DNA from: Nitrospirota bacterium
GTDB taxonomy: Bacteria > Nitrospirota > Thermodesulfovibrionia > Thermodesulfovibrionales > SM23-35
Assembly: GCA_040754395.1 (NCBI GenBank)
Contig: JBFMCL010000028.1
Coordinates: 1 to 38,339 of the forward strand
Direction: 5' to 3'
Length of the DNA stretch: 38,339 nucleotides
The translations under genes were made by a program, and so were the position numbers. Under the pieces are notes generated by a model. The model had not been told where the DNA came from. It made no database searches and saw only the letters and a list, made by a program, of their open reading frames with translations. Position 1 is the first letter of the stretch. Every line of letters starts with the position of its first letter. Positions 13,243-27,735 of the stretch are shown here, piece after piece.

Positions 13243-13354
13243 ATTCCCTCCTTTAAATCAGAAAAATTAACTACAACGTTCACAGAAAACTGTATCCATG
13301 CCATGGGAAGACTCTCCCTGAAAACAAGCAGAAAAATCTTCTTCCTCTGTGGTT

Positions 13355-13639
13355 TCATTTCTCTTCCTTCACTACATGAAGCTCCATCTTCACTTCTGCC
13401 AGTTCTCTCTTGAGTCTGTAATTCTCCATCTCCACTTCGGTCAGCGGCTTCTGTGTCTTGCCTACTTCAGCAAGCTTCCCGATTTTGTGGGCCTTGACCC
13501 AATAAGTTATTGTCAATGGAGCTAATGATAATCTGCGGCCAACCTCAGGGATACTCAACCCGCCTTCTGTGATTAACTTTACCGCTTCCTCTCTGAACTC
13601 CTTTGTGTATTTACCATTTGGAATCCTCTGCTTTGCCAT
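13355..13639 (-). pseudogene. IS3-family transposase OrfA, truncated
   Basis: A 94-aa helix-turn-helix protein: GKYTKEFREEAVKLITEGGL, IPEVGRRLSLAPLTITYWVK, then a leucine-zipper-like EMENYRLKRELAEVKME. This is the usual OrfA layout. The expected ending (about ERDILKKAAAYFA) is replaced by ELHVVKEEK and a stop, so the OrfA/OrfB frameshift region and all of OrfB are gone. The ribosome site GGAGG lies about 9 bases before the ATG at 13637-13639. The residual OrfA could still bind the surviving end but cannot transpose. Confidence 0.75.
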
Positions 13640-13690
13640 CTTGACACCTCCGTCTCTGTATTTTACCCAACTTTGGTGTCCACTTTTTCT
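13355..13690 (-). mobile_element. IS3-family element remnant (orfA plus one end)
   Basis: Remains of an IS3-group insertion sequence. The OrfA reading frame (13355-13639) is preceded by an end-like sequence on the minus strand, AGTGGACACC (13675-13684), resembling IS3-family termini. OrfB, the DDE integrase, and the other terminal repeat are missing; beyond 13355 the sequence becomes the upstream region of the octaheme cytochrome. It marks the left boundary of the accessory island and may contribute promoter sequence to the cytochrome operon. Confidence 0.7.
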
Positions 13691-13738
13691 ATCCTACCTC
13701 AGTTTCTACCGTTTTATATATGTTCTATCACGTTTTTG

Positions 13739-13981
13739 TCACGTTCGTATCCTGTAAGCATCGAAGAGGAAATTGACTGATACAGGAATACCTTTCTGAC
13801 TGATCCTCGCGGCGATTATACTTACAACATCTTCTCCCTGATCTGTGCATGCTTCCGAAATCATCTGGCCGACTCTGAAGTTCGTCTCTGCGATCTCATA
13901 GCTTTTCTTTGAGCCGGATTTCAAAAGCTTTGCGATCTGCTCTAAAAGCTCATCGGTTTCAGGCATAAATGTTCCTTTCAT
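13739..13981 (-). pseudogene. DUF1016 N-terminal domain-like fragment
   Basis: An 80-codon ORF with a helical sequence (ELLEQIAKLLKSGSKKSYEI, NFRVGQMISEACTDQGEDVV, ISQKGIPVSV, FDAYRIRT). The arrangement of a first helix, a 'vGxmIse' helix and a final Tyr-Arg helix is like the N-terminal DNA-binding domain of DUF1016/YhcG proteins, which normally continue into a PD-(D/E)XK nuclease domain. Here the frame stops straight after that domain and no nuclease follows. The likely start is the internal ATG at 13966 (MPETDELLEQ); GTTCCTT is all that precedes the upstream ATG. Function unknown; probably a broken gene. Confidence 0.4.
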
Positions 13982-14045
13982 GATTATTAGTGATTATTGG
14001 TTTAAATTACTGATACGTAGTAAACGATAATTATTTGGCGTCAGG

Positions 14046-14120
14046 ATGTCAGAAAAAGACGAAGAGAAAGACGTAAGAACACCTGAATTATTTAGGGGAA
14101 AAAAGGGTATGAGGTTTTAA
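14046..14120 (+). CDS. Possible 24-aa ORF, unknown
   Basis: A plus-strand ORF reading MSEKDEEKDVRTPELFRGKK GMRF with AGG just before the ATG. It is charged and has no recognisable domain. It may be the remnant of a small antitoxin-like protein next to vapBC, or chance. It is the only coding-like signal in the interval 13982-14149. Confidence 0.15.
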   Translation: MSEKDEEKDVRTPELFRGKKGMRF

Positions 14121-14149
14121 TCTTTCGGGAAAGAACCTTTAACAATAAA

Positions 14150-14620
14150 TCATTCGGCAAGCTTTAAGTCTTTAAAATATGTCCCATAGAATCCGCGGTC
14201 TCTGGTCAGTAAAAGTTTGGCATGAACAAGAGCATGGGCACCTATTATGAAATCACTGATAATATGCTGCCTGAATTTGACAGCGGATTTACATTCAGGA
14301 CAGGTAACAGGGATAGCTTTGCCGCAATGGGAGCACTCTAAAGCAATCTTTTTGTTTCTGGCATACTCTTTCCATGCTTTTCCCGCACGGTATAATATTT
14401 CTTTGTTAGAGGGCATCAGCCTTATTCCCGTGTCTGAGAAAAAATCGTGCAATTCCTGCTCATCTGAAAATTGAGAGGCTAACTCGGCGTATACAAGCTC
14501 ACATATGATAAGCTGACCCTTTGACAGGTATTCATTAAGTATTTCTTTCGAGGACGTCAAATGAGCCTCATCAGGTATCAGTATGTCAAGTAAGATATTG
14601 GTATCTATCGCTGTTATCAT
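14150..14620 (-). CDS. vapC: VapC-type PIN-domain toxin with a zinc-ribbon-like insertion
   Basis: Predicted endoribonuclease toxin, 156 aa. PIN motifs: AIDTNILLDIL (Asp6), ELVYAELASQF (Glu45 or nearby), ISDFIIGAHAL (Asp123) and LLTRDRGFYGTYF (Asp141), so the four-acid Mg2+ site looks complete. Unusually, between the helical part and the third acid lies CSHCGKAIPVTCPEC (Cys 96, 99, 107, 110), two CxxC pairs that could bind zinc. The start overlaps the antitoxin stop by 4 bases (ATGA, 14617-14620), the standard vapBC order. The toxin would be held inactive by the upstream protein; its RNA target is unknown. Confidence 0.85.
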   Translation of the reverse strand: MITAIDTNILLDILIPDEAHLTSSKEILNEYLSKGQLIICELVYAELASQFSDEQELHDFFSDTGIRLMPSNKEILYRAGKAWKEYARNKKIALECSHCGKAIPVTCPECKSAVKFRQHIISDFIIGAHALVHAKLLLTRDRGFYGTYFKDLKLAE

Positions 14621-14844
14621 CTGCCCCTCAGTTCATCAGTTATTGCATCAGATTTTTTACCCTTAAGTGTTTTCAGTTTTCCAACCCATTTATCAAAAGG
14701 GGATTCTTGAACTGCTTTTTTAATATAAAAAATACCGTTTTTTTCAACAAAACTTATCCCCTCTCCCGGTTCAATTCCGAGCTTATCCCTCACTTGCTTG
14801 GGGATTGTTATCTGTCCTTTGGATGTAACCTTTGCCGCCAGCAT
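14617..14844 (-). CDS. vapB: AbrB/MazE-type (VapB) antitoxin
   Basis: DNA-binding antitoxin of 75 aa. The SpoVT/AbrB fold occupies residues 1-48: LAAKVTSKGQITIPKQVRDK then LGIEPGEGISFVEKNG. The C-terminal tail (ESPFDKWVGKLKTLKG, DAITDELRGR) is the expected toxin-neutralising segment. A GTG two codons upstream is open, but AGGAGG lies 5 bases before the ATG at 14842-14844, so the ATG is the start. It is followed by vapC with a 4-base overlap. An inverted repeat over the promoter indicates autorepression. Confidence 0.9.
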   Translation of the reverse strand: MLAAKVTSKGQITIPKQVRDKLGIEPGEGISFVEKNGIFYIKKAVQESPFDKWVGKLKTLKGKKSDAITDELRGR

Positions 14845-14855
14845 AAACACCTCCT

Positions 14856-14908
14856 GTAAGGAATATAATCCTTACTTTCATTGTAAGGATTATAAATAAA
14901 TTTGTCAA
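14856..14908 (-). promoter_or_regulatory. vapBC promoter with overlapping operator repeats
   Basis: On the minus strand a -35 TTGACA (14903-14908) and -10 TACAAT (14880-14885) are separated by exactly 17 bases. A perfect 12-base inverted repeat, TATAATCCTTAC (14864-14875) and GTAAGGATTATA (14883-14894), with a 7-base spacer, covers the -10. A third half-site GTAAGGA lies at 14856-14862. This is a typical operator for AbrB-type antitoxin autoregulation. Confidence 0.8.
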
Positions 14909-15136
14909 TTATTCTCATTGACATATAAAAGATCCTATTTTTCTTTCTGCTTGATTTCAATATTTTATAGATTAATAGATTTTCAGTGGACGTGAGGATG
15001 ATGTCATAGACTCCATAGGGTAATGAACGAGGCTGAAGCATATTGACGATATTGACAAGTATGTGCAACGATCATTTTCGCACGACCAGCCAATTCGGAG
15101 ACTTCCATTAAATTGGGGACAACCCCCTTATTACCA

Positions 15137-15532
15137 TTATACATTGATTAAAGATTTAACTTCCCTAACGAATTCTTTTCCCTTTTGAAGCCAGTCTTCC
15201 ACTTGTTGTTTTTCAAAACGAACAAGTTCAATATAGTCACCTCTCTGGCGGGCTTCAAACAACTCATCGTAAAGTTGTCCATGCTCACGGCTCACTTGTC
15301 CTGGTTTAACAAGATATTGGTGAAAAGCGGACCTCACCCCGGAGTGCTTGCTGAATCTGAGCTTATGCTGGAGTAAGATAGCGCTGACTGCGTAGAAAAA
15401 TGCATAATAAATCCGATTTACAGAAAATGAAAAACGGCCTGCCTTTAATTCATCCTCAGCAGCCCCGAGAGAATCTTCAGCCTTTTCCATCCAGTATTGA
15501 ACCACTACCTTTAAATTCTTTTCCTCATTCAT
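15137..15532 (-). CDS. HEPN-domain protein of a HEPN/MNT toxin-antitoxin pair
   Basis: 131-aa all-helical HEPN protein (COG1895-like): YWMEKAEDSLGAAEDELKAG, then RFSFSVNRIYYAFFYAVSAI, then KHSGVRSAFHQYLVKPG. The block NRIYYAFFYAV and the HSGVRSAFH segment are family hallmarks; R67 and H71 could form the R-x-n-H ribonuclease motif. In such pairs the HEPN partner is the toxic RNase and the nucleotidyltransferase silences it by AMPylation. Its start overlaps the MNT stop by 4 bases (ATGA at 15529-15532). The stretch 14909-15136 downstream holds no recognisable gene. Confidence 0.85.
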   Translation of the reverse strand: MNEEKNLKVVVQYWMEKAEDSLGAAEDELKAGRFSFSVNRIYYAFFYAVSAILLQHKLRFSKHSGVRSAFHQYLVKPGQVSREHGQLYDELFEARQRGDYIELVRFEKQQVEDWLQKGKEFVREVKSLINV

Positions 15533-15897
15533 AGCGGAACTCCTTCCTCCTCAATAAAGCTATGGATTGGCAGGAGAGAAAATATATCGCTCTCCCATTC
15601 TTTTTCCGACATTATGAGAGCGCTTATGTTAGTTCCAAATGCAAGGTTAATGTCAAAAACCTTATGAATGATCTGTCGTCTTATATCTTTAGAAACATCA
15701 CAGGGCAGTAAGACCAGAAGATCGAGATCGGATTCCTCGTCCGCAAGACCTTTTGCCTTAGAGCCAAAGAGCTTGAACTTCGCATTCGGCCAGGACACCC
15801 TCATATCCGACATGAGTTTAATCAAGGCGTCCTTTTCGGATTCTGAAAAAATTCCTTTTGCAGCCAGGGATTCCGCCGTTTTTCCCTCTATCGACAT
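15529..15897 (-). CDS. MNT-type minimal nucleotidyltransferase (antitoxin)
   Basis: 122-aa nucleotidyltransferase of the MNT group. The pol-beta signature GS-x10-DxD is exact: Gly45-Ser46, then Asp57-Leu-Asp59 (FGSKAKGLADEESDLDLLVL). In characterised pairs MntA transfers AMP to the HEPN toxin. The N-terminus has a helical extension (LAAKGIFSESEKDALIKLMS). AAGGAGG lies about 6 bases before the ATG at 15895-15897. It is the first gene of the pair; its promoter probably lies within the relic-rich DNA upstream. Confidence 0.87.
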   Translation of the reverse strand: MSIEGKTAESLAAKGIFSESEKDALIKLMSDMRVSWPNAKFKLFGSKAKGLADEESDLDLLVLLPCDVSKDIRRQIIHKVFDINLAFGTNISALIMSEKEWESDIFSLLPIHSFIEEEGVPL

Positions 15898-15927
15898 ATC
15901 ATACCTCCTTATAATTTCACTCTTTTC

Positions 15928-16047
15928 TTACCTCAACAAACTCCTACGCAATCTCAATCTCCTGTTTTTATCTGAGAAATATATCTGTTCTCTTTTCATA
16001 ATCTCAAGCTTTATTTCAGACCAGAAACCGATTTTATCGAGTTTCAT
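15928..16047 (-). pseudogene. Truncated tcmP-like gene start, copy A
   Basis: A 39-codon ORF starting MKLDKIGFWSEIKLEIM, which matches the N-terminus of three-Cys-motif partner (TcmP) proteins, usually about 250-400 aa. After residue 17 the sequence is basic and unlike the family (RRLRLRRSLLR). Its ATG overlaps the stop of an upstream tail in an ATGA. Positions 16006-16047 are one copy of a 42-base direct repeat shared with two other sites. A gene-end-like sequence (GAGATTGAGATTGCG, minus strand, near 15945-15960) lies inside it out of frame. Confidence 0.55.
16006..16047 (-). repeat. 42-bp direct repeat, copy A
   Basis: Encodes MKLDKIGFWSEIKL. It is equal in length to the copies at 16309-16350 and 17711-17752 and differs from them at only a few positions. 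All three run from the ATG/GTG start to the same AAGCTT, after which the sequences diverge. Confidence 0.85.
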
Positions 16048-16121
16048 TGCTTCCCTTCTACAATCTTAATAGCCTGCCCTCTATATAATGTGCCTGTCTT
16101 CTTTTTGTTATTAATTCCCCT
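16044..16121 (-). pseudogene. C-terminal gene tail ending AIKIVEGKQ
   Basis: An open frame without its own start that ends GTLYRGQAIKIVEGKQ and stops at 16044-16046, overlapping the copy A start. The final residues resemble Eco57I-type methylase endings (EIEIIEG). The preceding NNKKKTG resembles the end of DUF5131 (Gp37/Gp68) proteins, known partners of TcmP. A short palindromic sequence, CCCCTCT...AGAGGGG, lies at 16116-16133. Only a vestige; the parent gene is not identifiable with confidence. Confidence 0.35.
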
Positions 16122-16155
16122 CTATCAAGAGGGGATTAAGGGGTGTGTCTTCTCC

Positions 16156-16275
16156 TCATAAAATGTCAATTTGCGGTGTCTGACCCCGCAGGTTTTTCGT
16201 CTCTTTACCCTTATGTATGCGCTCTTTTATCTCTTTGAAAAATGTCTTGTATTCGGCGGTTACTATAACTGACAT
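16156..16275 (-). pseudogene. DUF1016-like N-terminal fragment
   Basis: A 39-codon ORF, MSVIVTAEYKTFFKEIKERI followed by HKGKETKNL and an unrelated end. The first 20 residues match the start of DUF1016/YhcG-family nucleases (xEYxxFLxxIKxRI). GGAGG lies 6 bases before the ATG, and the start abuts the stop of the copy B ORF without a gap. The remainder of the gene (about 300 residues) is missing. This is the second DUF1016-like fragment in the island, the other being at 13739-13981. Confidence 0.4.
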
Positions 16276-16350
16276 TCATTTCCTCCCTTCAACTATTGCA
16301 ATCTCACCAAGCTTTATTTCAGACCAAAAACCAATTTGATCGAGTTTCAC
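16276..16350 (-). pseudogene. tcmP-like start fused to a methylase-like end, copy B
   Basis: A 24-codon ORF starting with GTG: VKLDQIGFWSEIKL, the 42-base repeat, is joined directly to GEIAIVEGRK, which looks like the last residues of an Eco57I-type methylase (compare PEEIEIIEGH in the intact gene at 19623). It appears to be two gene ends left after loss of everything between. The GTG overlaps the stop of a short upstream tail (EIMIEGKM, stop at 16347-16349). Confidence 0.5.
16309..16350 (-). repeat. 42-bp direct repeat, copy B
   Basis: Encodes V/MKLDQIGFWSEIKL with a GTG start. It is the second of three copies of the same gene head; see 16006-16047 and 17711-17752. Confidence 0.85.
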
Positions 16351-16489
16351 ATCTTCCCCTCTATCATTATTTCCCCCCTCAGAAAATTTATCCTTTCACT
16401 TTTACAGTTTCGCTCTCAGTCTCCACCGTCCACTGCGCGTCGGATAATTTCCCTGTTTTTTTGTCATCTTTCTCTTCTATGGGACTCCC

Positions 16490-17413
16490 TTATTTTTTAG
16501 CGTAAAGACAATGGCTGTTATCAATTTTAGCTTGGTCATTAAAAAAATCTGGCAGGTATTTTACAGCCCAATCCTCTTCCGCCATGTCAAACGGTTTTAT
16601 GTAATACGTTTCATCAGGTTTTGTCACGAAACGGTTTTCTCCATGCTTCCAATGGATTGCGCCATATCTGACGAAGGGGTTAAACCTATCTGAAGAAAAA
16701 TCAATCCGCGTTTCTCCTTTGAGTCCAATCTCAAACTCCTTTGCCTTTTCTATCAGTTGAAGAGCCTTCGGAGTCAAGACCGCTCCCAGCCATTCCTGCT
16801 CCTTCTCATAACGGGCAGCATCTACCAACGCGGAACTCACCATGACCTCCCCATCTTTATAGAAGTCCCCACCCCCGATTGCTCCTCTTAGAGGAAATCT
16901 ATTTCTCATGGCGACTGCCATAACCATCGAGCAAGTTCCAAGAAAGACTTCCAAAGAGCCGGAGAATAGCGGGTGCCGATTGGTATCCACCACAATAATG
17001 ACTGCGTCGGACAGAATCCAGTGGTCGAGTTTCACAGCAAGGATATCAGCTCCCGCATAACTCCCTGTGTTCATGAAAAACGTACTTATTTTGCGTATGG
17101 CTTCTTCGATAGGAGTTTTTTCGATAAAGGAAGAATAGCCTATGATGTCAAAGAAACCAACGAGTGTGTCATGGTAGTAGACAATCACATCGTTCTTTTT
17201 CAGATAATACGTGACGACCTCATGTGGATTACCATTGAACTTATAGAGGATGTCGTCAAGTTCTTCACGCGAGACCTGTAAAATATCTTGCCGATTCCTG
17301 ATGGTCACATCCAATCGCTCGGCTGAGGAGTCAACTCTTGCACGCTCAACCTGCCTAAATTGCTTGAATACTTCTCCCCATACTTCGATTGAATATGTAT
17401 ATTCTGTACCCAT
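16490..17413 (-). CDS. Class III nucleotidyl cyclase-like protein, orphan
   Basis: 307 aa. The central part reads VGFFDIIGYSSFIEK (metal-binding Asp89 candidate), WILSDAVIIVVD (second Asp136), then PLRGAIGGGDFY, VSSALVDAARYEKEQEWLG. This is the order seen in divergent adenylate/guanylate cyclase-fold proteins, including the cyclases of Pycsar-type defence. No membrane segment or sensor domain is evident; residues 1-80 are a soluble N-terminal region of unknown fold. The ribosome site is weak (TTGAG directly before the ATG). Its frame stays open for 33 codons after the stop, to 16388. No effector gene (TM or TIR with a cyclic-nucleotide-binding domain) is adjacent, so cyclase activity and a defence role are inferred. 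Confidence 0.6.
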   Translation of the reverse strand: MGTEYTYSIEVWGEVFKQFRQVERARVDSSAERLDVTIRNRQDILQVSREELDDILYKFNGNPHEVVTYYLKKNDVIVYYHDTLVGFFDIIGYSSFIEKTPIEEAIRKISTFFMNTGSYAGADILAVKLDHWILSDAVIIVVDTNRHPLFSGSLEVFLGTCSMVMAVAMRNRFPLRGAIGGGDFYKDGEVMVSSALVDAARYEKEQEWLGAVLTPKALQLIEKAKEFEIGLKGETRIDFSSDRFNPFVRYGAIHWKHGENRFVTKPDETYYIKPFDMAEEDWAVKYLPDFFNDQAKIDNSHCLYAKK

Positions 17414-17477
17414 CTCAATTAGATGCCTTCACATAAGCTCTCAGCATTGCAGCGAACGCTGTTTAAAAAATAGAATT

Positions 17478-17613
17478 TTAATCTTTGTTAGTCTCACCCT
17501 CCACAATCTCAATCTCCTCCGAGGTGAGGTCGTATAGCTCATAGACCATTTTATCAATCTGGTGTTCAAGGACGGGGGGCTTCTGTTGCTGTGTTGCTGT
17601 TAATTTCGATTAA
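17478..17613 (-). pseudogene. C-terminal remnant of an Eco57I-type methylase
   Basis: An open frame without its own start reads KLTATQQQKPPVLEHQIDKM then VYELYDLTSEEIEIVEG and stops at 17478-17480. It matches the end of the intact methylase in this island (VYDLYGLTPEEIEIIEG) but is a different, diverged copy. Everything upstream is lost. It lies just upstream of the cyclase-like gene. Confidence 0.65.
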
Positions 17614-17674
17614 TTAGAACCGTCCCCGATTCCCTGCGATAAGTTAACTTAGTTAACAACATGTCCCCTATTTT
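17614..17674. repeat. REP-like palindromic segment bounded by GTCCCC
   Basis: Contains GTCCCC twice (near 17622 and 17663) and an inverted GTTAAC-TTA-GTTAAC core (17643-17657). The boundaries and GGGGAC motifs recall short repeats mobilised by REP-associated tyrosine transposases; no such transposase is in the window. Confidence 0.35.
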
Positions 17675-17710
17675 GCTCTCTCGTCCCTTTTGGCACTCAT
17701 TAATAATCTT

Positions 17711-17752
17711 AAGCTTGATTTCAGACCAGAAGCCGATTTGATCGAGTTTCAT
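17711..17752 (-). repeat. 42-bp direct repeat, copy C
   Basis: Third copy of the gene head encoding MKLDQIGFWSEIKL, directly at the end of the UvrD-like helicase gene. Confidence 0.85.
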
Positions 17753-19614
17753 AAGCCGATATCCTGCAAAAATTCTGATAGACCAACTCTACTATAGGTT
17801 TTCCCTTCTCTTTTAACTGTCCCTATACTTGCAGTATGATGGCCTTTTGTTTGCCTGAATGGTAAATACCGGCTCCAACTTATAGCCAAAGTCTTTTTAG
17901 CCCTTGTAATGCCAACATAAAGCAAACGTCGTTGTTCTTGCTTGTGTTCATGGTCAGTTAAATGAACTGAACGATTCTTGCCTGGGATGTTGCCATCATT
18001 ACACCCTAAAATAAAAACGTGATCAGCTTCTAATCCTTTAGAAGCCATTAGGGTCATTACTCTAATTGTGTTATCATCAAAATGCAGCGTTCTTGTGTAA
18101 TCAGTAAACTTTGAGTAAAGACTTTTGATCGTATCATCGGCTTCCTTAAGAGAAAATAATATTTGCCTAATTTCTAAAAGTTCTTGAACAGAATCTGGGA
18201 ATAAATCATCCAGCACCTTTTCGATAGAAACCTCATTTTTGTACGAATCAACGATTCCTTTAAGTCTGATCAGTTTCCCGCACACATGATGGACTCTTTT
18301 CTTCTTTTTATCAAAATCATTTGGATTAACAGATTGAACTGCATTTTTAAGTCCACCATATTTCTGTTTTATTTCCTTAATCTCATTTGCAAAATGATTG
18401 TCGTCTCCCACTCCTAAATAAGCTCTGATATGTAGCAAACCATCTGGATTAGCAATAATGCCTAAAAGCGATATACTTTCTGCTTCTCTATCTGTGAACG
18501 CGTCTTTAACTGCAAAGCGAAATACAAGATTCCCCTGCATATGATCGTTTTCTCTCTTAGCAGTGGCGAATTTCACAAAATCTATGCCTAATTTCTTCCG
18601 AGGGGCCAAAACAAGAATATCTTTCGGCGAGGCGCCGGAGTTCAATCTCGAATCAACTAATGTCAGTATTTCTTCGAACTCTTCATCTTGATATTGTTTC
18701 TGAAATAATTGGACTTCACCAGTCATAGCATTAGGAAGAGGCTTTAACCTTTTTTTTGTCGGATCAGATTGTATAAGTAGTTTATTTGCGAGATCGAGTA
18801 TTTTTGTGGAGCATCTTCCAGAAAAAGGCAAGGCATGATTTTCTGTACTATCTTTGTCAGCAAATTTAGTGATCCCGACGGGATATGCGAACTTAAAACT
18901 GTAGATAGATTGATCTGGATCACCAACTACCACCAGAAGCTGTGATGATTTTGCCAGTATTTCGATGAACCTCTGCTCTAACTCATTCAGATCTTGATAC
19001 TCATCGACAAAAATATATTGAGGTTCAGCAATAAATTCAGAATCTATTTTAGTAGCCAGATCAACAGCATGATAGGCTATTTCCTCCATCATGGCTGCTT
19101 CCTGCTCACTAAGCCAATTTAGGATTGCTGCTTTAAATTGTCTTTTTTCATCATCCTCATTAAATACATCATCGTGCGGTTTGATGGCCCAACCAGCACT
19201 GAATTCGTCAAGCATTATTCGCAGTTTCTTCTTGTCTTTTTGTGGGAATATCAATTTGAGATCAGAAATCATTATCTTTTTTTCGAAATCCAGGATTATT
19301 GAGTTAACTCGTTTTCTAATTTCATGATTGTCTTCAGTCAATAAAAAGGACAAACAGAAGGAATGTAACGTTGAAGCTCTTGGCACTTTTTCCAGACTCT
19401 TAACCTTATTCTGAAGATCAATCGCTGATAATCTCGAAAATGTCAGAAGGAGCACATTTTTTGGTGCTACGTTTGAATCTGTAATTATTTGTTTGGCTTT
19501 AGGAATTAAGATACCAGTTGTCTTGCCGCTTCCGGGACCGGCAATAACACAAATTCGTTTTGCGGTTGAATTTAGGATTTCATCAAATTTTCTGCTATTA
19601 TTGATCTCTTCCAT
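17749..19614 (-). CDS. UvrD/Rep-like superfamily 1 DNA helicase
   Basis: 621-aa ATP-dependent 3'-5' DNA helicase. Motifs: Walker A AGPGSGKTTG (25-34), LLTFSRLSA (Ia), VDEYQDLNELEQRF (II, 203-216), VVGDPDQSIYSFK (III, 229-241), VMTLMASKGLEADHVFILG (V) and RRLLYVGITRAKKTLAIS (VI). It is shorter than UvrD (about 720 aa), with reduced 1B/2B insertions, and no fused nuclease is seen. It starts 8 bases after the methylase stop and is more AT-rich than the glycolytic genes at left, consistent with acquisition by transfer. Position in the operon suggests that it processes DNA in a restriction-type system. A housekeeping repair helicase is less likely given the context. Confidence 0.88.
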   Translation of the reverse strand: MEEINNSRKFDEILNSTAKRICVIAGPGSGKTTGILIPKAKQIITDSNVAPKNVLLLTFSRLSAIDLQNKVKSLEKVPRASTLHSFCLSFLLTEDNHEIRKRVNSIILDFEKKIMISDLKLIFPQKDKKKLRIMLDEFSAGWAIKPHDDVFNEDDEKRQFKAAILNWLSEQEAAMMEEIAYHAVDLATKIDSEFIAEPQYIFVDEYQDLNELEQRFIEILAKSSQLLVVVGDPDQSIYSFKFAYPVGITKFADKDSTENHALPFSGRCSTKILDLANKLLIQSDPTKKRLKPLPNAMTGEVQLFQKQYQDEEFEEILTLVDSRLNSGASPKDILVLAPRKKLGIDFVKFATAKRENDHMQGNLVFRFAVKDAFTDREAESISLLGIIANPDGLLHIRAYLGVGDDNHFANEIKEIKQKYGGLKNAVQSVNPNDFDKKKKRVHHVCGKLIRLKGIVDSYKNEVSIEKVLDDLFPDSVQELLEIRQILFSLKEADDTIKSLYSKFTDYTRTLHFDDNTIRVMTLMASKGLEADHVFILGCNDGNIPGKNRSVHLTDHEHKQEQRRLLYVGITRAKKTLAISWSRYLPFRQTKGHHTASIGTVKREGKTYSRVGLSEFLQDIGL

Positions 19615-19622
19615 ATTTTTAA

Positions 19623-22600
19623 TTAATGCCCCTCTATAATCTCAATCTCCTCCGGCGTGAGGCCGTAGAGGTCATAGACCAGCCTGTTGATTTCCGCTTC
19701 GAGACAGGGAGCGTCAGGACTATCGCGATTCTCAAGAATTTTCTGGACGCATTCGATAATGAGGTTTTTTTGATTATCGGAGGCCAACGCTACCGGAAAG
19801 TGTTGCATAAAAATAGCACTCGGTTCAAAGAACCCCCCTCTTAAAAGTGGCAGGGTTGAAAAAAACCATCGGGTCGCGAGCTTTGAATTAAGAACAGCCA
19901 ATAAGTAAAGATCATTAGTAGGGATAATGAAGCATTTCTGATTTGTCAAAATTCCGGTTGTGTCAAAAGCAAAAATGTTTGTCTTAGTAATATTGGGATA
20001 AATAATCTTCGTCTGCTGAAATTCTTTATAGTAGACGCATGACCTTAATTCCCACCAAAATTTTCCTTGGTCGTCTCGCTTAATAAGTTTGTCTTGCCAC
20101 TGCGACAGGTGTTTATAGATGGCAGGATAAGCCTGGGCAAATATTTTCTTTGCCTTTCCTTCAGTTTTTTCATCTGACCATTGCCAATGATGATTGGCAC
20201 TACTCGGGATATTTATGACATACAGTCCTGCCCATTCCGCCTTCCATTTTTTTATGTCCTTTCCACGCAGCCATGGCTTGATAAGTCCTTCACTCTTAGG
20301 GTCTTCTGAAATGAGCAGTTGCTTGGTTCTTTCGTCTATAACAAAAGCCTCATTAAGACCTGTCAATATGCCCCGATAAAACCGTCCCTGCACATATTTA
20401 CCAAGAGGTGTTCCAACCTTGCGCAGCTTTTCCATCAACGCTAAAACCTCGGTTCTTTCAAGATTCCAGCCTTCTTCCTTCAACGCTGAAACAGGCATTG
20501 GGAATCCGATGATTGACAGGGTTTCTTCCAACCGTTCCAATTGAGCCGCATCGGTAAATGTTGCGGCAAGTAATTCCGTTTTTGTAGGGGCAACCCTGTG
20601 TGGTTGCCCTTCTTTTGGTGGTTGTTGATTAATCAAATCAGGGCGGCCACATAGGGCCGCCCCTACAAAAGGCATTTTCTCAACCAATATTATTGACGGA
20701 TACGTCGTTGCGTCGAATATCGGGAGGTCGCAAAAATCTATGATTACCTTCGGCTTGACTTCAGTCGCAAGCAGCTTTCGGGTATTCTTGCCGTAGCCGG
20801 CCCGCATAAATTTGTTCGGCGCTATGAAGCAGAGATGACCACATGATTTAAGCAGATCGATTCCTTTCTTATAGAAATAAGTATAAATGTCTGCCGTTCC
20901 GCAATAGAAATCGCCGAATTCCTTCTTTAGCTCCGGTTTCAACTCCTTGATGGTTTCGTGGCGTACGTATGGAGGATTCGCGAGAACAATGTCGAATCCT
21001 TCATTTTGATGAAAAACTTCGCTGAAATACACCTTAAAGTCAAAATGCTTGTCATTATTCGTGATCTCGCTTATGAGGTTGTCGATGTCTTCTTTAAACT
21101 GGATTTTCTTTCTTGGATTTGTTTCTTCAAAATATTTCCCTTTAAGTCTTTCGAGTTCCTTAAGTTCTGCATGGTGGAAAAGAATGTTTACAGTCGAAAG
21201 GGAATCTCCGCAGACGATTTTATAATCAAGGTTCGGCAAAGGCTTTATGGTCTTGAAGTCATCTTCATCAACAACAAGAGAGAGCCAAAGCCGGAGTTTC
21301 GCTATATCTACGGCACCCGGGTCAATGTCAACGCCGTAGATCGACTCCTGGATAGCATGGCGCTTAAAATTATACGGAGTCCTACTTCTACTTTCTCCAA
21401 TGTATGTCGTTAATGTTTCTCTTGCCCGAACAATCTCATGCATTATGCCGACGGGAAATGCCCCTGACCCGATGGCCGGGTCACAAATTTTTATGGCTGC
21501 CAGCTTGTCATCAAAGAGTTCCGCATTGTTTCGGATGCTCTCAGGCATTTTGTAGGCATATGATTTTGTTCCTTGCTCTTTCGCAAGATCGTTGTTTATT
21601 GCAAAATCGCCTCTTCTGATAAAGGCTTCAATGTCTTCACGAGGTATCAACTTATTAGATTCTGCTTCGCTTGTTCTGTGCGTCATGCCGGCTTGTCCGG
21701 CATCCTTCTGTAACCCCTCCCGTCCTCCCCTTAAGTTAAGGGGAGGTGAAGGTGGGGTTATGGACGAAGAAGAGACATCTGCCGTGTCGTCGATATTGTC
21801 ATTTATTGACGTGTCGAGATAATTGATGAGGCTTTCCTGGCACATGTAGTGGACAATCTCACGGGGTGTGTAATAGGTCCCTTTTGATTTTCGGTCTTTG
21901 ACCTCAAGCAGGTTCTCGAAAACCTTTCCGAGCATTTCAGGGTCAACGGCCACTTCTCTTTCAAGCGGTTCGTCTTCCCGGACGGTAAAATTGTAAAGGT
22001 CAAAGGTATCGAGGATCTCTCTGACGGTCTCGTTCTTAAGAAGAATATCTGTCTCTTCCCAGTTGTAACCATTAATCGGCTCAAACAAGCCGCCGTTCAG
22101 AAAAGGGATCTTGCAGTTGAACCGGCTGTAAAACGATACTTCTCCTCTGTCTATTGCAAGGGCTTCATAGAACAGAGGTTCGAGAATATCATCGAAGAAA
22201 TTATCGTAGCTTACGATCTCTTTCTCAAAAAGCCTCCGCATGAAGTTTCTCGGTCCGGTACCCCATGTCCTGTCTTTACCGACACCCAGCCAGCCCTTTT
22301 TCTGAATGAAATAAAGGAAAACAATCTGGCCGAGGAGCTTTTTGGCAAAATTGGCAGTGTCAATATACTTGCTCTCGAATTCTGTCTTTATTTTTTGGTC
22401 AATGGCAACTACATTATCCAGCTCGTCTTTCACTTTCAGGAAAAGGTCTTTATACCTGTTAAAAAATTCTTTGGTTATAGACTCGATGTTAAAGGCATGT
22501 TCGATATCTGCAAGTGTCGGATTATTCCTGTCATCTTCCAGAATGGGGACAAGTTGCTGCTGGGCGGTGTGGTTCGGCTCGTTACTGCCGACCAGAAAAG

Positions 22601-23057
22601 AGTATCTTCTCGCAGGGGTTAAATCTTCCTTAACCTTGACCTTGCCGCTCTCTGTCTGTATTGTCCTGTAATCCATGCGGACGAATGAAAAACGCCAGTC
22701 TTCCAGCCCGTCAGTACAGAAAGCGACTATTGCCGCGTCCTTCTCCCCGCGATTCTTCAGATAGTGGGCCACAAAGTTTCTCTGCATGGTTCGGGCACGC
22801 TCAAGCGATGATTCTTTCTTTAAATAGACGACTAAAACGTCGAGTTCGGTCTCTCCGGGATCAGTATATTTACCGATTCTCTTATACTGTCTTATATGGT
22901 CTTTGAAAGCATCGGGAATATACTGTCCGTAATATGCAAAGGCTTTTGACTCATCCAGCTCATTAAAAAGGTTCTTTGTGAAAAGCCTGAACCTGTCCTC
23001 ATCAAAAGAATTATTGAATGTCTCCTGTATTAATCTGACCGCTTCATGTCTGTTCAT
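19623..23057 (-). CDS. Eco57I/PglX-type DNA methyltransferase (possible type IIG enzyme)
   Basis: 1144 aa, N6-adenine methyltransferase type. Residues 1-160 contain ETELDVLVVYLKK (69-81), a PD-(D/E)XK-like strand pair, and DAAIVAFCTDGLEDWRFSFV. Residues 370-410 carry the linker EVKDRKSKGTYYTPREIVHY. Motif I is CDPAIGSGAFPVG (525-537), then GVDIDPGAVDIAKLRLWLSL, and motif IV ANPPYVRH (693-700). The C-terminal third is a TaqI-like specificity region ending EIEIIEGH. Two stretches, residues about 432-466 and 798-826, are encoded by palindromic repeats inserted in frame. It starts 1 base after the helicase stop with a poor ribosome site, so it is probably translationally coupled. It could act alone as a type IIG enzyme or as the modification subunit of a multi-gene system. 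Confidence 0.88.
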   Translation of the reverse strand: MNRHEAVRLIQETFNNSFDEDRFRLFTKNLFNELDESKAFAYYGQYIPDAFKDHIRQYKRIGKYTDPGETELDVLVVYLKKESSLERARTMQRNFVAHYLKNRGEKDAAIVAFCTDGLEDWRFSFVRMDYRTIQTESGKVKVKEDLTPARRYSFLVGSNEPNHTAQQQLVPILEDDRNNPTLADIEHAFNIESITKEFFNRYKDLFLKVKDELDNVVAIDQKIKTEFESKYIDTANFAKKLLGQIVFLYFIQKKGWLGVGKDRTWGTGPRNFMRRLFEKEIVSYDNFFDDILEPLFYEALAIDRGEVSFYSRFNCKIPFLNGGLFEPINGYNWEETDILLKNETVREILDTFDLYNFTVREDEPLEREVAVDPEMLGKVFENLLEVKDRKSKGTYYTPREIVHYMCQESLINYLDTSINDNIDDTADVSSSSITPPSPPLNLRGGREGLQKDAGQAGMTHRTSEAESNKLIPREDIEAFIRRGDFAINNDLAKEQGTKSYAYKMPESIRNNAELFDDKLAAIKICDPAIGSGAFPVGIMHEIVRARETLTTYIGESRSRTPYNFKRHAIQESIYGVDIDPGAVDIAKLRLWLSLVVDEDDFKTIKPLPNLDYKIVCGDSLSTVNILFHHAELKELERLKGKYFEETNPRKKIQFKEDIDNLISEITNNDKHFDFKVYFSEVFHQNEGFDIVLANPPYVRHETIKELKPELKKEFGDFYCGTADIYTYFYKKGIDLLKSCGHLCFIAPNKFMRAGYGKNTRKLLATEVKPKVIIDFCDLPIFDATTYPSIILVEKMPFVGAALCGRPDLINQQPPKEGQPHRVAPTKTELLAATFTDAAQLERLEETLSIIGFPMPVSALKEEGWNLERTEVLALMEKLRKVGTPLGKYVQGRFYRGILTGLNEAFVIDERTKQLLISEDPKSEGLIKPWLRGKDIKKWKAEWAGLYVINIPSSANHHWQWSDEKTEGKAKKIFAQAYPAIYKHLSQWQDKLIKRDDQGKFWWELRSCVYYKEFQQTKIIYPNITKTNIFAFDTTGILTNQKCFIIPTNDLYLLAVLNSKLATRWFFSTLPLLRGGFFEPSAIFMQHFPVALASDNQKNLIIECVQKILENRDSPDAPCLEAEINRLVYDLYGLTPEEIEIIEGH
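20580..20671. repeat. Dispersed inverted repeat inside the methylase gene
   Basis: Two arms of about 30 bases (20581-20610 and 20640-20670), each itself quasi-palindromic (GTAGGGGCAACCCTGTG... and the complement of GTAGGGGCGGCCCTATG...), are separated by about 30 bases. The insert encodes VGAALCGRPDLINQQPPKEG and QPHRVAPTK without breaking the frame. It is of the type found dispersed in intergenic DNA. Confidence 0.75.
21660..21764. repeat. Composite palindromic repeat inside the methylase gene
   Basis: Contains a perfect 23-base palindrome with a 1-base centre (21724-21746, arms CCTCCCCTTAA/TTAAGGGGAGG). Next to it is a 7-base inverted repeat ATGCCGG-CTTGT-CCGGCAT (21685-21703). It encodes TPPSPPLNLRGGREGLQKDA and GQAGMTHRTSEAES in frame, at a surface-linker position before motif I of the methylase. 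Confidence 0.8.
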
Positions 23058-23058
23058 C

Positions 23059-26000
23059 TCATGACCCGGTAGTCTTCAAATACTCGGACAATATCACTTC
23101 TCTTCTGTCATGCCCGATTTGCTGGGCGGGCGGTGACACAGACAAAATGGTCGTGGGGAGATTCTTTTTCAATATGGCAAGCACTTTGAGAGGGACAATT
23201 TCTTTTTCGAGTTCATTTTTGAGACGTTTGCTGGTATTTTTAGGGATTATTCCATTTTCAAAGGCTTTCAAAACTGACCTCAGAAAATCTTCATCTTCTT
23301 CAGTAAAACCAGAAAACTTCTGCAAATCTTTCACTTTAAGTCGCTTTATGATATAACTTTCGTTTGAACTACTCGCTGGATGACCCTTTTCAGCAGTCTC
23401 ATCGGACGTTGCCTGATCAAATGCAGCCTTGTTAAGGTCAAGGAATGAATAAAAGGTTTTAGGAATAGTAGTTTTTGAAGTTGCAGGGTCACACTTGAAA
23501 AGATCAACCGCCTCAAAAAAGGTTAATTCGCGTGCAGCAGAAGAATCTGCAAGGAAGAACTTTTTCAGTTTCCCCTTCCTGAAAAAAGTAACCAGATTAT
23601 CTTCTTTCTTTCTCTCAATCTCCCGGCATGTTCGGGCCTTCTTCGGAAGACGTTTAATTCTTTCGAACAGGGAAGTGTTCTTATCACGGATATTACGGAG
23701 CAGATGAAGGTACTCGAGCTCGGATCGCTCCTCCTCATCTTCACCCTGGAACGTTTTCTTGTCACTCAAACGCCTGTAGATGAAGTCGCCAAACAGCTCA
23801 TGGGTGGAGATTTCTTCCTCTTCGGTAAGATACTTTGCATCTTCCCCGAGAGTGTCGTGGAATGCCTGTATCTTAGCTTTTATGTTTGCTTCCAGCCCAA
23901 GGTGCATGTCTGACTGTGCAGTCGGGAAAAAGTTAAAGATATTTATCACCTTGTGCTTTGTACCGACACGGTTTACCCTGCCTACCCGCTGCAATATACG
24001 AGTGGGATTCCACGGGAGATCGTAGTTAATCACCGTATTTGATCGGTGCAGATTAATTCCTTCAGCAAGGATATCTGTCGTAATCAGTATATTGATATCA
24101 TCTTTCTGCGGTTTGTTCTTGGGGGCGAAGTTTTCTTTAATCAGGTCACGGGCAATCGGTATACTCTTTTCGTCATCTCCATAAAGCCCGCCCACACTGG
24201 AGTAGAAAAGAACTCTTAAAGGCAGATGTTTATTTAATTTTTTAAAAAGGTATTCACCAGTCTCTTTTGACTCCGTGAATACAACAAGCTTGTTCTCTTT
24301 TATAATGAGATTCTCTTTCAGTTCGTTGATGAATTTTTCGAGCTTCGGATCTGAGTCTATATCGCTCCACAGTTTTTGAATGTTTTCAAGTAAAGTGAGG
24401 TCTCTCTGGAGATTGCGAAGGAATTCTACGGTGAACTCCGGGGATTCGTATTTCTGCACCCTGTCCAGATCCACAAGCTTCAACAGTTCTTCTTCATTAT
24501 CCGAGTCAAGGAAATCATAAACATTCACCTTCTTGCTGATGTAAACGGTTCCCTGCTGATACATATCGATAAATTTCCGGTAAGAATCGACAAAGCGTAC
24601 CAATGTTTTCTTAAAGGCATGGAAACTACTCTCCAATCGTTTTACGAGGATGCCCTTCATGAATCCTCCGATATTCCGTTGGGACTGGAGTTCAAACTCA
24701 GAAACCGGCGTCTTCAAATAGAGCAACGGTGTATATCTGGAGTAAGAAAAATCCTTCAAAAGGGTTATAGTCCTGCTGAAAACATTGCCGGTCTTCTCGT
24801 CAAAGGTATAAATAATGCGTTTTGGATCATCCAGTTCAGGGAAAGAGACACCCTGTTTCTCCATATCTTCACTGAAGTATTTCATGACTTCAGTGCGTGT
24901 CCTGCGGACCATAACGAATTTAAGAATTTTGTCTCTCACTTCCTTTGAGACAAGCTTTATTGTTTCGATATATTCGGGCTGATTCTTCTGATATCTGTTT
25001 ATTCTCTTCTTTAATGACCCAAAGAATTTCTCCAGGTTCTGGACGCCCGGGATAGTGCTTTTCTTAGGCACCTGAAACAGCTTCAGCTGGCTGTAAATGT
25101 CGTCAATAGTATTATTTAATGGTGTTGCCGAAACGAGGATGACCTTCTTGCCAAAACAAATCTGATGGAGTTTCTCGTATCCAAGGGTCACCTCATTTCT
25201 GAACCGATGAGCTTCATCGATAAATATATAATCAAAGCGTTCTGCTCCGCTCTTTATGATTTGGTCGAGCTTGCCCAGAGATTCAACCTTGTAGCCTCTT
25301 ATCCCGAATTCAAAAAAAGTATCATGCCAATAATCCTCAAGAACCGGAGGACATATGACGAGGATTTTTCCGGGAAGCTGCTGAGCGAGAAGTGCGGAAA
25401 TATACGTCTTGCCCAAGCCGACGACATCGGAGAGAAATACTCCGTTATAGGCATCCAGTATCTTTTTTGCTGAAACTACAGCCTGCTTCTGGTATTTCAT
25501 ATCGAGAAAACCTTCGGGAAGATAGCTTTCAAAATCCTCATCTATATTGATATCTTCCTTGAGATATTCATAAAGGAACTTCAGATAAAGTTCATAGGGG
25601 GTGATATAATCATTCAGCCAGGTTCTTGCATTTATCGTCTCCACATATTCCCTGGAGATATCAACAGCATCTTTCCACAAAGCTTCAAACTTGTCGAGGG
25701 CATACTTAACGTCAGCGCTATTTTTTAGCTCAACATTAAATTCGAGGTTTTCAATCAGACCGGATTCTGAAAAATTACTGGAACCGGTAATCACTCTTCC
25801 ATAGTCACGGTCCTCTTCAGAGAACCTGCTTATATAGACCTTTGCATGGATTTTTGAGCTTGGATAGGCTTTGATTTCGAGTTTTTCCGACTGCAAAAAT
25901 TCGATGAACTTTCTTACACCTATCTCAGTATCATACGTATCCTCAGAATGTTCCATTTCAGTGGCAAGATCTTCGGAGAATACTTCCTTTGTCCGTTTGT

Positions 26001-26253
26001 GAGATTCGAAATCAAGTTTCCCTTTAGATTTTGAGGACTCAATGATTTCAAAAGCGGTTTTATCAATATTGATACCGACAAGGATTCTTATCTTTTCTAT
26101 CGTTTCAAAGGATTTGTAGAGGTGGAAAAAACCGCTTGTCCGGAAATATCCGACAAGAACATCAAAAAACTGGACATCCTTCAGGGTTTTCCTGAATCTG
26201 TCAAGGATAGTAGCGCCCGGTTCGTTAGTAAAGAAGGTCAAATCATCATGCAA
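23059..26253 (-). CDS. PLD-nuclease/SNF2-type helicase fusion
   Basis: 1064 aa. Residues about 15-200 form a phospholipase D-like nuclease domain with IHAKVYI (His136, Lys138) and TGSSNFSESGL (156-166), a single HxK motif. An SF2/SNF2-type helicase core follows: DVVGLGKTYIS (Walker A, 276-286), FIDEAHRFRN (344-353), LVSATPLNN, and in the C-terminal half LVVFTESKETGEYL, TTDILAEGINLHRS and QRVGRVNRVG. Such proteins translocate on DNA and couple this to cleavage. The only in-frame start is TTG (26251-26253), with GGGAG about 9 bases upstream. It is the first gene of the helicase-methylase-helicase run and is separated from the AbiEi-like gene by about 130 bases with no other gene. Restriction subunit or DISARM-like role is inferred. 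Confidence 0.85.
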   Translation of the reverse strand: MHDDLTFFTNEPGATILDRFRKTLKDVQFFDVLVGYFRTSGFFHLYKSFETIEKIRILVGINIDKTAFEIIESSKSKGKLDFESHKRTKEVFSEDLATEMEHSEDTYDTEIGVRKFIEFLQSEKLEIKAYPSSKIHAKVYISRFSEEDRDYGRVITGSSNFSESGLIENLEFNVELKNSADVKYALDKFEALWKDAVDISREYVETINARTWLNDYITPYELYLKFLYEYLKEDINIDEDFESYLPEGFLDMKYQKQAVVSAKKILDAYNGVFLSDVVGLGKTYISALLAQQLPGKILVICPPVLEDYWHDTFFEFGIRGYKVESLGKLDQIIKSGAERFDYIFIDEAHRFRNEVTLGYEKLHQICFGKKVILVSATPLNNTIDDIYSQLKLFQVPKKSTIPGVQNLEKFFGSLKKRINRYQKNQPEYIETIKLVSKEVRDKILKFVMVRRTRTEVMKYFSEDMEKQGVSFPELDDPKRIIYTFDEKTGNVFSRTITLLKDFSYSRYTPLLYLKTPVSEFELQSQRNIGGFMKGILVKRLESSFHAFKKTLVRFVDSYRKFIDMYQQGTVYISKKVNVYDFLDSDNEEELLKLVDLDRVQKYESPEFTVEFLRNLQRDLTLLENIQKLWSDIDSDPKLEKFINELKENLIIKENKLVVFTESKETGEYLFKKLNKHLPLRVLFYSSVGGLYGDDEKSIPIARDLIKENFAPKNKPQKDDINILITTDILAEGINLHRSNTVINYDLPWNPTRILQRVGRVNRVGTKHKVINIFNFFPTAQSDMHLGLEANIKAKIQAFHDTLGEDAKYLTEEEEISTHELFGDFIYRRLSDKKTFQGEDEEERSELEYLHLLRNIRDKNTSLFERIKRLPKKARTCREIERKKEDNLVTFFRKGKLKKFFLADSSAARELTFFEAVDLFKCDPATSKTTIPKTFYSFLDLNKAAFDQATSDETAEKGHPASSSNESYIIKRLKVKDLQKFSGFTEEDEDFLRSVLKAFENGIIPKNTSKRLKNELEKEIVPLKVLAILKKNLPTTILSVSPPAQQIGHDRREVILSEYLKTTGS

Positions 26254-26385
26254 GGTAACATTCTCCCTTTATGAAAAATGAGACTGTTTCGGACCAGCCA
26301 AGCACTATGGTACCTATTCGATACATGCAAGATACCTCTTCTTCTCCACCCTCCCAACTATGATAGACCCATTATCAAAATAATC

Positions 26386-27468
26386 CTACCATATGGGCTT
26401 GATCCTCTGTTCGAATATTGCCTGTGCCGCTTCCTCGCCTCTTCCTTTATAACTCTTCAGATCAAGATAAAGTTGAATATCTGAGACAACACTAACGCCT
26501 TGTATGTTTTGAAGTCTATAGAAGATGCCTTGGTCATACGGCTGAAGCAGGGTTATGTTGGTACCGGTTTGCACTTTCTTTAGTTGCAAGGTTTTTTCGA
26601 TATCCTCGATATTTCCGTCAATATAGCAAAACAATCTCATAAACCTTACAAAAGGCGCAACCTTTTTTGCGCCGGAAAACAGAGCAAGGCCGTAGCGATA
26701 CTTCCTTTGTTCACATTCTTTTTTAATCGCAGCCTCAAGCTGATTTTCGGAAAGCCTGGAATAATAAGAAAAACTCTGGTTCTTCTGATAGGAATAATTG
26801 CTAACCCATTGGCTTAGCATTTCTTCTGGCTTCACAAGGTAGAAGCTTTTATTTTCTTCTTTGATCCATTCTTCAGCCAGAAGAGCTTGCTTTACCCGCG
26901 AGGTCAACCCTATGCTGATGCCAGCTTCCTGAGACAAGCCCTCGACGAACCATCTCTTTGAGGGATCTGCCAGGAGCACCCTTAAAATTCTGCTTGATTT
27001 TGGTGAGAATACGGACTTCGAAATGCGCATCACAGGAAAGGGATTCGATCTGCCGCTTCTATCAACAAAGATGTTCTTAAACGACAAGAAAGCATTCCCT
27101 GCGAGATCAATACATCCTATCCCTGACTCTTTGCATATCTGTCTGCTTATGTCGCTGAGATAGGGAGCAATCAGTATTCCATATGAATCCTTAAAACTTT
27201 GGAGATCACTTTTAAGCTGAGCAATTGCTATCCTCACAAAACGAGGCTCGCCTTGCGATTTCATTGCTATAATAAATTTTGCCGGCTTACCTGAAATAAG
27301 CGCGTCCAGCATGAAATCGATTTCTCTATTATCTACTCTGACATTAACTTTTGTTTTCTTTAACTTAATGAAAGGAATTTCGTAAAGAATAGCCTCTATG
27401 CTTTCTTGAGCTTTGTTGAGTAGATCCTTATCCGAGAATTGTTTCACTGATAGTATTTGTTTCACCAT
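26386..27468 (-). CDS. AbiEi-like winged-helix protein with a nuclease-fold N-terminus
   Basis: 360 aa, resembling proteins annotated as type IV toxin-antitoxin AbiEi-family antitoxins. The N-terminal 135 residues look like a PD-(D/E)XK fold: NREIDFMLDALIS, then FIIAMKSQGEPRFVRIAIAQ where the usual ExK reads AxK, so catalysis is doubtful. A second block is YGILIAPYLSDISRQICKE, then IGCIDLAGNAFLSF. A winged helix follows at about 150-215 (FSPKSSRILRVLLADPSKRW, ISIGLTSRVKQALLAEEWIK), then a C-terminal domain of unknown role. The ATG at 27466-27468 lies inside a 20-base palindrome, suggesting autoregulation. No AbiEii-type nucleotidyltransferase partner is adjacent. It may regulate the defence operon downstream. 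Confidence 0.7.
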   Translation of the reverse strand: MVKQILSVKQFSDKDLLNKAQESIEAILYEIPFIKLKKTKVNVRVDNREIDFMLDALISGKPAKFIIAMKSQGEPRFVRIAIAQLKSDLQSFKDSYGILIAPYLSDISRQICKESGIGCIDLAGNAFLSFKNIFVDRSGRSNPFPVMRISKSVFSPKSSRILRVLLADPSKRWFVEGLSQEAGISIGLTSRVKQALLAEEWIKEENKSFYLVKPEEMLSQWVSNYSYQKNQSFSYYSRLSENQLEAAIKKECEQRKYRYGLALFSGAKKVAPFVRFMRLFCYIDGNIEDIEKTLQLKKVQTGTNITLLQPYDQGIFYRLQNIQGVSVVSDIQLYLDLKSYKGRGEEAAQAIFEQRIKPIW

Positions 27469-27505
27469 ATGGTGAAACTATAATATATAGTGAAACATAA
27501 GTCAA
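27459..27505 (-). promoter_or_regulatory. Promoter and palindromic operator of the AbiEi-like gene
   Basis: A perfect 20-base palindrome GTTTCACCATATGGTGAAAC (27459-27478) contains the start codon. A further half-site GTGAAAC lies at 27490-27496. On the minus strand -35 TTGACT (27500-27505) and -10 TATAGT (27477-27482) are 17 bases apart. Transcription would begin within a few bases of the ATG, giving a leaderless or nearly leaderless mRNA. Confidence 0.7.

Positions 27506-27660: not shown

Positions 27661-27735
<75 letters not shown>

Follow-up and report, generated by a model that had tools for sequence, protein, structure and literature searches.

Genes of the locus and the helicase–methylase pair

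This analysis concerns a candidate defense locus in a 38,339-nucleotide stretch of DNA from a Nitrospirota bacterium (contig JBFMCL010000028.1), called the window below. Four neighboring genes lie there on the minus strand. In the order in which they are read, these are an AbiEi-like gene (26386–27468, 360 residues; Pfam AbiEi_2, E = 6e-14), a gene for a PLD–SNF2 helicase (23059–26253, 1064 residues, TTG start; PLDc_2, SNF2-rel_dom and Helicase_C), a methylase gene (19623–23057, 1144 residues; Eco57I and TaqI_C) and a UvrD-like gene (17749–19614, 621 residues; UvrD-helicase and UvrD_C), separated by 132, 1 and 8 bases, respectively. A sequence-only reading of this DNA had described these genes and proposed that they form one compact multi-gene defense system; the open reading frame map bears out the positions and spacings it gave, and Pfam bears out the domains. 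We refer to the helicase and methylase genes as core genes 1 and 2.

The helicase and the methylase are essentially an obligate two-gene pair. We searched 396 genomes of the same phylum with the PLD–SNF2 protein and mapped the neighborhoods of the matches. A helicase profile, run against bacteria and archaea with each species represented by a single genome, gave homologues at 523 or more loci, of which the best 80 were analyzed. Once loci known to be identical were dropped, 109 loci were left, and the helicase homologues span roughly 20 bacterial and archaeal phyla. A methylase gene stands downstream of the helicase on the same strand in 85 of the 90 loci whose contig extends 1.5 kb or more past the helicase, with a spacing of at most 60 bases in 49 of 93. 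In the reverse direction, the methylase N-terminal domain occurs in 35 of the 396 genomes, in 32 of which the helicase gene, or what remains of it, lies next to it or no more than about 1.5 kb off; the other three (G173, G389 and G032) are truncated frames. A family survey of neighboring genes revealed no third constant gene upstream of, between or downstream of the two, and because no family is common even to the genes directly upstream, the pair is without a third constant member. The sequence-only reading had proposed a check of co-occurrence in other genomes. For these two genes adjacency is consistent in distant genomes, which supports its idea of a compact system joining a PLD–SNF2 helicase to a PglX/Eco57I-like methylase.

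Many of the loci come from metagenome assemblies. Two of them, one in an archaeal bin (L086) and one in a bacterial bin (L087), are the same contig stretch with identical match coordinates and identity, probably through misbinning. Taxon labels are therefore approximate, and the evidence for occurrence in archaea comes from the remaining archaeal loci, L125, L153 and L154. A helicase search of viral contigs gave no match, and phage records gave just two partial helicase matches; thus, there is no sign of a phage-borne system.

In the PLD–SNF2 protein, an HKD/PLD nuclease domain (residues ~1–200) precedes a Swi2/Snf2 motor (~240–810) and a conserved C-terminal region. Over the 71 loci in which both genes are complete, the HKD residues H136, K138, S158, N160 and E171 are invariant, as are the motor residues K282, T283, DExH 346–349, AT 376–377, Q755, R756 and R759. 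In an AlphaFold2 (AF2) model (pLDDT 78.8), residues 233–817 match the Swi2/Snf2 remodelers INO80/ISWI with Z of ~20. We predict that this protein is the restriction and translocation subunit.

In the methylase, D526 (of D526PAxGxGxF) and NPPY 694–697 (N694PPY) are likewise invariant over these loci, and the nearest solved structures are CamA and M.BseCI. The protein is thus predicted to be a gamma-class N6-adenine methylase and to serve as the specificity and protection subunit. Its N-terminal domain (residues 1–165; 22563–23057, minus strand; AF2 pLDDT 85) has a PD-(D/E)XK-like layout without conserved (D/E)XK residues: E78 and K80 occur together in 17 of 92 homologues, and the window protein has Tyr at 78. 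D73 is kept in 85 of 91 homologues, and R89, R93, W121, R122 and S124 are nearly invariant. Since the methylase has no conserved (D/E)XK, the HKD site is the sole conserved nuclease of the pair. For the N-terminal domain we propose a role in docking the helicase.

The regions of the methylase have different histories. Mean pairwise identity is 50% for residues 1–165, 62% for 190–415 and 47% for 500–790, against 22% for the hypervariable, TaqI_C-type target-recognition region (residues 800–1095; 19773–20660, minus strand). Distances in the first three regions follow those of the helicase (Spearman 0.57, 0.53 and 0.37, respectively; reached in 0 of 500 permutations). Distances in the target-recognition region do not track them (Spearman 0.08). 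By this comparison, the specificity region is exchangeable while the helicase-facing part is kept. A variable target region joined to N-terminal domains that track the helicase is the signature of a restriction–modification (R-M) system that swaps its specificity.

Two oddities lie within the same gene. A 36-nucleotide inverted repeat (20580–20670) sits in frame just before the target-recognition region (residues ~797–828); that it might be a dispersed element was ruled out, as the genome contains it only once. Residues ~434–447 form a second odd insert, PPSPPLNLRGGREG, and relatives carry similar inserts.

Passenger genes and junction repeats

The remaining genes of the locus differ from the pair in their distribution. 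The UvrD-like protein is a UvrD/GajB-like SF1 helicase with intact catalytic motifs, and the sequence-only reading had counted it as a component that degrades or unwinds DNA. Its type, however, is found at none of the other PLD-helicase loci. UvrD-family genes of any kind stand behind the methylase in about 3 of 85 other loci, and Pfam matches occur in 3 of 70 downstream genes. The 396 genomes hold one close relative (88%), in a genome (G004) without the helicase of the pair, where it follows a 987-residue DrmD-like helicase (E = 1.6e-199) and a 1316-residue DrmMI-like methylase (E = 2.6e-83) and is followed by a 273-residue PDC-M41A protein and then a radical-SAM protein. Nucleotide similarity between the window and this genome (89%) covers 17715–19652, which takes in exactly the UvrD gene, the final methylase codons on one side and the opening codons of the 273-residue gene on the other. 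Because its sole close relative stands behind a DrmD-like and DrmMI-like pair, UvrD appears from these comparisons to be exchangeable cargo and not core. The claim of membership is not supported, and given the rarity of UvrD at other loci, the proposed function is without comparative support. We also considered UvrD as a stray GajB from a Gabija system and rejected this, because there is no GajA and its neighbors are the methylase and a cyclase-like gene.

The operon in the related genome (L161, G004:C3, 887–11665) consists of the DrmD-like, DrmMI-like, UvrD, PDC-M41A and radical-SAM (SPL-like) genes with an adjoining integrase, and no drmA or drmB is present in the stretch read.

At other loci, the slot behind the methylase holds OLD-like ATPases, short Argonaute with SIR2, reverse transcriptase, nSTAND3, McrBC, GmrSD, KAP and others, and genes between helicase and methylase include Fic, Schlafen/AlbA_2, NYN, YhcG, KilA-N/Bro-N, HicA, HepT and TumE. 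In the window, a second cargo gene (16490–17413, minus strand, 307 residues), a conserved protein behind UvrD, has homologues 67–70% identical directly behind the methylase at two other loci (L081, 6062–7012; L137, 15544–16485), so that the family is known from three loci at 307–316 residues. It has no Pfam, PADLOC or PDB profile match. Its motifs FFDIIGYSSFI, LSDAVIIVV and LRGAIGGGDFY are class III cyclase-like, and it may be a nucleotide-signal defense cyclase (Pycsar-like), one without an obvious effector. A third cargo, an MntA-like nucleotidyltransferase and HEPN toxin–antitoxin pair (15137–15897, minus strand; Pfam NTP_transf_2 and HEPN), lies further on.

The AbiEi-like gene, which the sequence-only reading had also included, most plausibly flanks the pair as a regulator or accessory confined to one clade. 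Apart from the window, such genes (67–75% identical) precede the helicase gene in just three close relatives (L040, L039 and L077), and in two of these another gene (Fic in L039) separates them from it. The name fits the C-terminal half only. The N-terminal half resembles, as judged from its residues, a degenerate PD-(D/E)XK domain: the relatives keep D51 ... E68-V-K70, but residue 68 is Ala in the window protein, which looks like the loss of a nuclease-like site. An AbiE toxin–antitoxin system is not indicated, as no AbiEii adjoins and the neighbors are the PLD-helicase and a tRNA-Gly. The operator ascribed to this gene corresponds to an overlapping inverted repeat at its start (27440–27497, no strand assigned; 31 nucleotides, 74% complementary), which is present as described; its role as an operator is putative.

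The window genes named above belong to a stretch (13300–27468) with a G+C content of 37–44%, versus 51% to its left and 46% to its right. Domain searches place further defense-type genes in it, among them one for a PIN protein, and a fragment of an IS3-type transposase. This island is flanked by a tRNA-Gly(CCC) gene (27661–27735); the stretch examined showed neither an integrase nor a repeat of the tRNA end.

The borders of the cargo genes carry repeats, all on the minus strand. The 3' end of the methylase gene (19630–19681, before UvrD, the first cargo) recurs, 87% identical, between UvrD and the cyclase-like gene (17497–17548; direct repeat D2). A third fragment (15943–15963; repeat D5), 90% and 81% identical to the other copies, stands before the nucleotidyltransferase–HEPN pair and at 21 nucleotides could be due to chance. 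The truncated 5' start of the PDC-M41A gene, which is complete behind the same UvrD in the related genome, overlaps the UvrD stop codon (17710–17765; repeat D1), and a repeat search found it again at 16308–16363 (88%) and 16005–16060. We then took the last 120 bases of the methylase gene at 72 loci and looked for them in the 6 kb that follow, at a score of 40 or more. They recur in 10, against 2 for the preceding 120 bases, 0, 0 and 1 for three internal pieces, 0 for the upstream side and 1 for the reverse strand. The cargo starts at or beside the methylase stop codon, and the distance from its own stop codon to the repeat copy is 8 bases in L135, 14 in L134, 48 in L137, 54 in L081 and 201 in the window. 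The copies in L043 and L067 sit further out.

A related arrangement is seen in five species of one genus (L048, L049, L051, L053 and L054), where Fic lies between helicase and methylase and is followed by a partial copy of the helicase 3' end; these repeats represent one lineage.

These junctions lead us to suggest, tentatively and at somewhat less than even chances, that helicase–methylase operons act as loading docks, in which defense genes enter at one fixed site behind the stop codon of the methylase (or the helicase) by recombination that duplicates the conserved 3' end. Alternatively, the 3'-end copies could be remnants of a lost tandem operon. The swap of specificity and the swap of cargo may be one event. 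How defense genes come to be added to an operon is usually answered by "defense islands" alone, and the junction pattern offers a concrete, testable route for adding them to a restriction operon without an integrase in the cargo. If true, the loading-dock model would explain why one restriction core is found with short Argonaute–SIR2, reverse transcriptase, Fic, Schlafen, UvrD or cyclase genes across hosts.

A proposed restriction–modification mechanism and its rivals

We think it likely that the pair is an ATP-dependent, two-subunit R-M system with exchangeable passenger genes. The target-recognition region of the methylase would read a short DNA sequence, at which the enzyme would methylate an adenine and so protect the host. 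At an unmethylated site on incoming DNA, the HKD–SNF2 protein, docked through the methylase N-terminal domain, would translocate with ATP hydrolysis, and its HKD active site would cut that DNA. Each chain has one HKD motif, so dimerization or the collision of two complexes would be called for. UvrD, the cyclase-like protein and the toxin–antitoxin pair would be cargo behind the methylase gene; UvrD may help to degrade or unwind restricted DNA and would not be needed by the core. The comparisons show an obligate pair with intact catalytic motifs, a specificity region that is exchanged, and turnover of cargo that goes with duplicated gene ends; adenine methylation, restriction by the HKD site, docking and an anti-phage benefit of the pair are what we infer. 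The sequence-only reading had called the system modification-dependent; modification-guided describes it better, as methylated DNA would be spared, as in R-M systems, and there is no sign of a Type IV attack on modified DNA.

A published operon offers a parallel. In Prevotella intermedia, the Pin17FIII methylase, which has an SNF2/RAD54 helicase gene upstream, produces N6-methyladenine (m6A) at GGYGAB when expressed alone (PMC5608340). Our pair has the same gene order, with the SNF2 helicase gene ahead of that for a predicted m6A methylase; this likeness is drawn from the published description of the operon. In P. nigrescens (L164, NZ_CP082843.1), the region 7871–19494 contains a distant pair whose helicase has the HKD motif and ~30% identity to that of the window. 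This region also holds inverted methylase fragments, a 47-base inverted repeat (13474–13520 / 16165–16211) and an Mpi-type invertase gene. The invertase and the inverted fragments suggest phase variation, so specificity there is likely phase-variable.

Several points weigh against the mechanism proposed. The activity of the locus is a prediction from sequence, and the system could act otherwise, for example by abortive infection or a replication block. The Prevotella link is distant at ~30% helicase identity and is to P. nigrescens; the published P. intermedia operon may be of the same family. Fold searches with the methylase N-terminal domain are equivocal: Foldseek gave nothing below 0.001, a sequence profile found no match in the PDB, and VIA gave Z scores of up to 5.7 to mixed unrelated folds, amid which stand the PD-(D/E)XK nucleases SSO0001 (5.3) and LHK-Exo (4.3). 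Finally, the E78–K80 combination of 17 of the 92 homologues suggests that a minority may hold a second nuclease.

Other readings of the locus can be set against the same observations. In the model of the sequence-only reading, the system has three genes, and UvrD is essential for processing DNA cut by the PLD-helicase. UvrD does lie 8 bases from the methylase on the same strand, its type also stands behind the DrmD-like and DrmMI-like pair, so that it seems drawn to helicase–methylase operons, and ARMADA type II unites an Snf2 helicase, a PglX-like methylase and a GajB-like UvrD (PMC12458937). Nevertheless, this model is unlikely: no other PLD-helicase locus has a close UvrD homologue, the slot otherwise holds unrelated genes (UvrD-family in 3 of 70), and the UvrD gene terminates at the truncated start of a foreign gene and at a repeated 3' end of the methylase gene. 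The methylase might instead be an autonomous Type IIG enzyme, with the PLD-helicase as a mere neighbor in a defense island. It matches PADLOC PDLC03596, labeled REase_MTase_IIG, with E = 6e-284, and the near invariance of D73 and the presence of E78–K80 in some lineages would suit a nuclease. But pairing with the helicase is obligate in both directions, the (D/E)XK residues are unconserved and missing in the window, and the N-terminal domain evolves with the helicase, all of which make this reading very unlikely.

It seems extremely unlikely that the pair is what is left of a DISARM or BREX-related (Hma) system after loss of its ATPase or DUF1998 subunits. In its favor, the SNF2 part scores with the DrmD, HmaA and BrxHII models and the methylase with DrmMI, and Type-2 BREX-related systems have an HKD nuclease fused to a Swi2/Snf2 helicase together with an N6-adenine methylase, for which an R-M-like logic has been proposed (PMC12839542). 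Those systems are defined by a DUF499 AAA+ ATPase, nearly always with a DUF3780 gene (PMC12839542). The best scores to known families are, however, far below the cut-offs (DrmD, NF038317, 146.7 of 610 bits), and in ~90 diverse loci the two genes form a coherent unit, which does not look like recent loss. Moreover, in the 29 genomes with the pair, DUF499 occurs in 4, on a different contig from the pair or separated from it by over 0.5 Mb, and MZB (PF09369) in 12, neither ever near the pair. DUF3780 is not among the 25 commonest families of neighboring genes, a survey that included no search aimed at it. In the window's own genome, which is 99.96% complete, none of PglZ (PF08665), MZB/DUF1998 (PF09369; DrmB, YprA) and DUF499 was found anywhere; for brxC and drmA, no search with their own family models was made. 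To this extent the earlier claim that the hallmark genes of DISARM and BREX are missing holds, and with markers absent and scores below cut-offs, the pair is distinct from both.

The two-subunit R-M reading has practical consequences. Annotation tools at present see the pair as a lone "Type IIG" methylase and a generic helicase; PADLOC would report the methylase alone, as Type IIG. If the two genes are one restriction system, the methylome motifs of such methylases can be given a partner in restriction, and annotation models will need a rule that treats both genes together.

Comparison with named systems

No exact match to a named system was found in PADLOC-DB 2.0, NCBIfam or the literature searched, a search that did not extend to REBASE and many subscription papers. 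Curated models do not reach their cut-offs for the whole helicase: it scores 160 bits against a cut-off of 1100 with NF042964 (PLD anti-phage protein), of which it is not a full-length family member, and the nearest PADLOC helicase model, C3a139 (HKD+Snf2), gives 196 bits. All 40 diverse helicase homologues scanned match C3a139, with modest scores that are much the same for several other helicase families. The methylase scores 70 of 400 bits with NF033451 and 53.5 of 500 bits with NF033452, the PglX/BrxX models. The pair is widespread and unnamed in the sources searched; as far as we found, the literature holds analogues of it, not the same pair. In its parts it is close to Type-2 BREX-related systems and in its logic to Type I, CglI/NgoAVII and SauUSI, yet it belongs to none of the named families tested.

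Among these analogues, DISARM class 1 (drmD, drmMI) likewise has an SNF2-like helicase beside an adenine methylase. The pair differs in having neither the drmB marker nor a separate drmC, in the fusion of HKD to the helicase and in its low DrmD and DrmMI scores. ARMADA type II differs in its YprA-family helicase, the marker of which (PF09369) is absent from the window's genome. Single-chain Type IIG enzymes, as classed by PADLOC and REBASE, share an Eco57I-type methylase with N-terminal and TaqI_C regions, in contrast to which the N-terminal domain of the window family has no conserved nuclease residues and the protein has an obligate partner gene.

The endonuclease of CglI and NgoAVII is of the PLD type. 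In these systems, ATP-dependent restriction is carried out by a helicase-like ATPase and an endonuclease, with a separate methylase (PMC4267653, PMC5737866). Nuclease and helicase are separate proteins in an R2H2 complex there, whereas in our pair they are one chain and specificity apparently resides in the methylase. SauUSI is another ATP-dependent nuclease of the PLD type (PMC7913695).

Type I R-M systems offer the remaining comparison. The pair has HKD and not PD-(D/E)XK as its nuclease, has no HsdS, and would place recognition and methylation in one Eco57I-type chain. Fic, AlbA_2, YhcG and KilA-N/Bro-N genes are also inserted in Type I operons. Thus, the likeness extends from a motor-nuclease working with a methylase to an exchangeable specificity region and to similar inserted genes.

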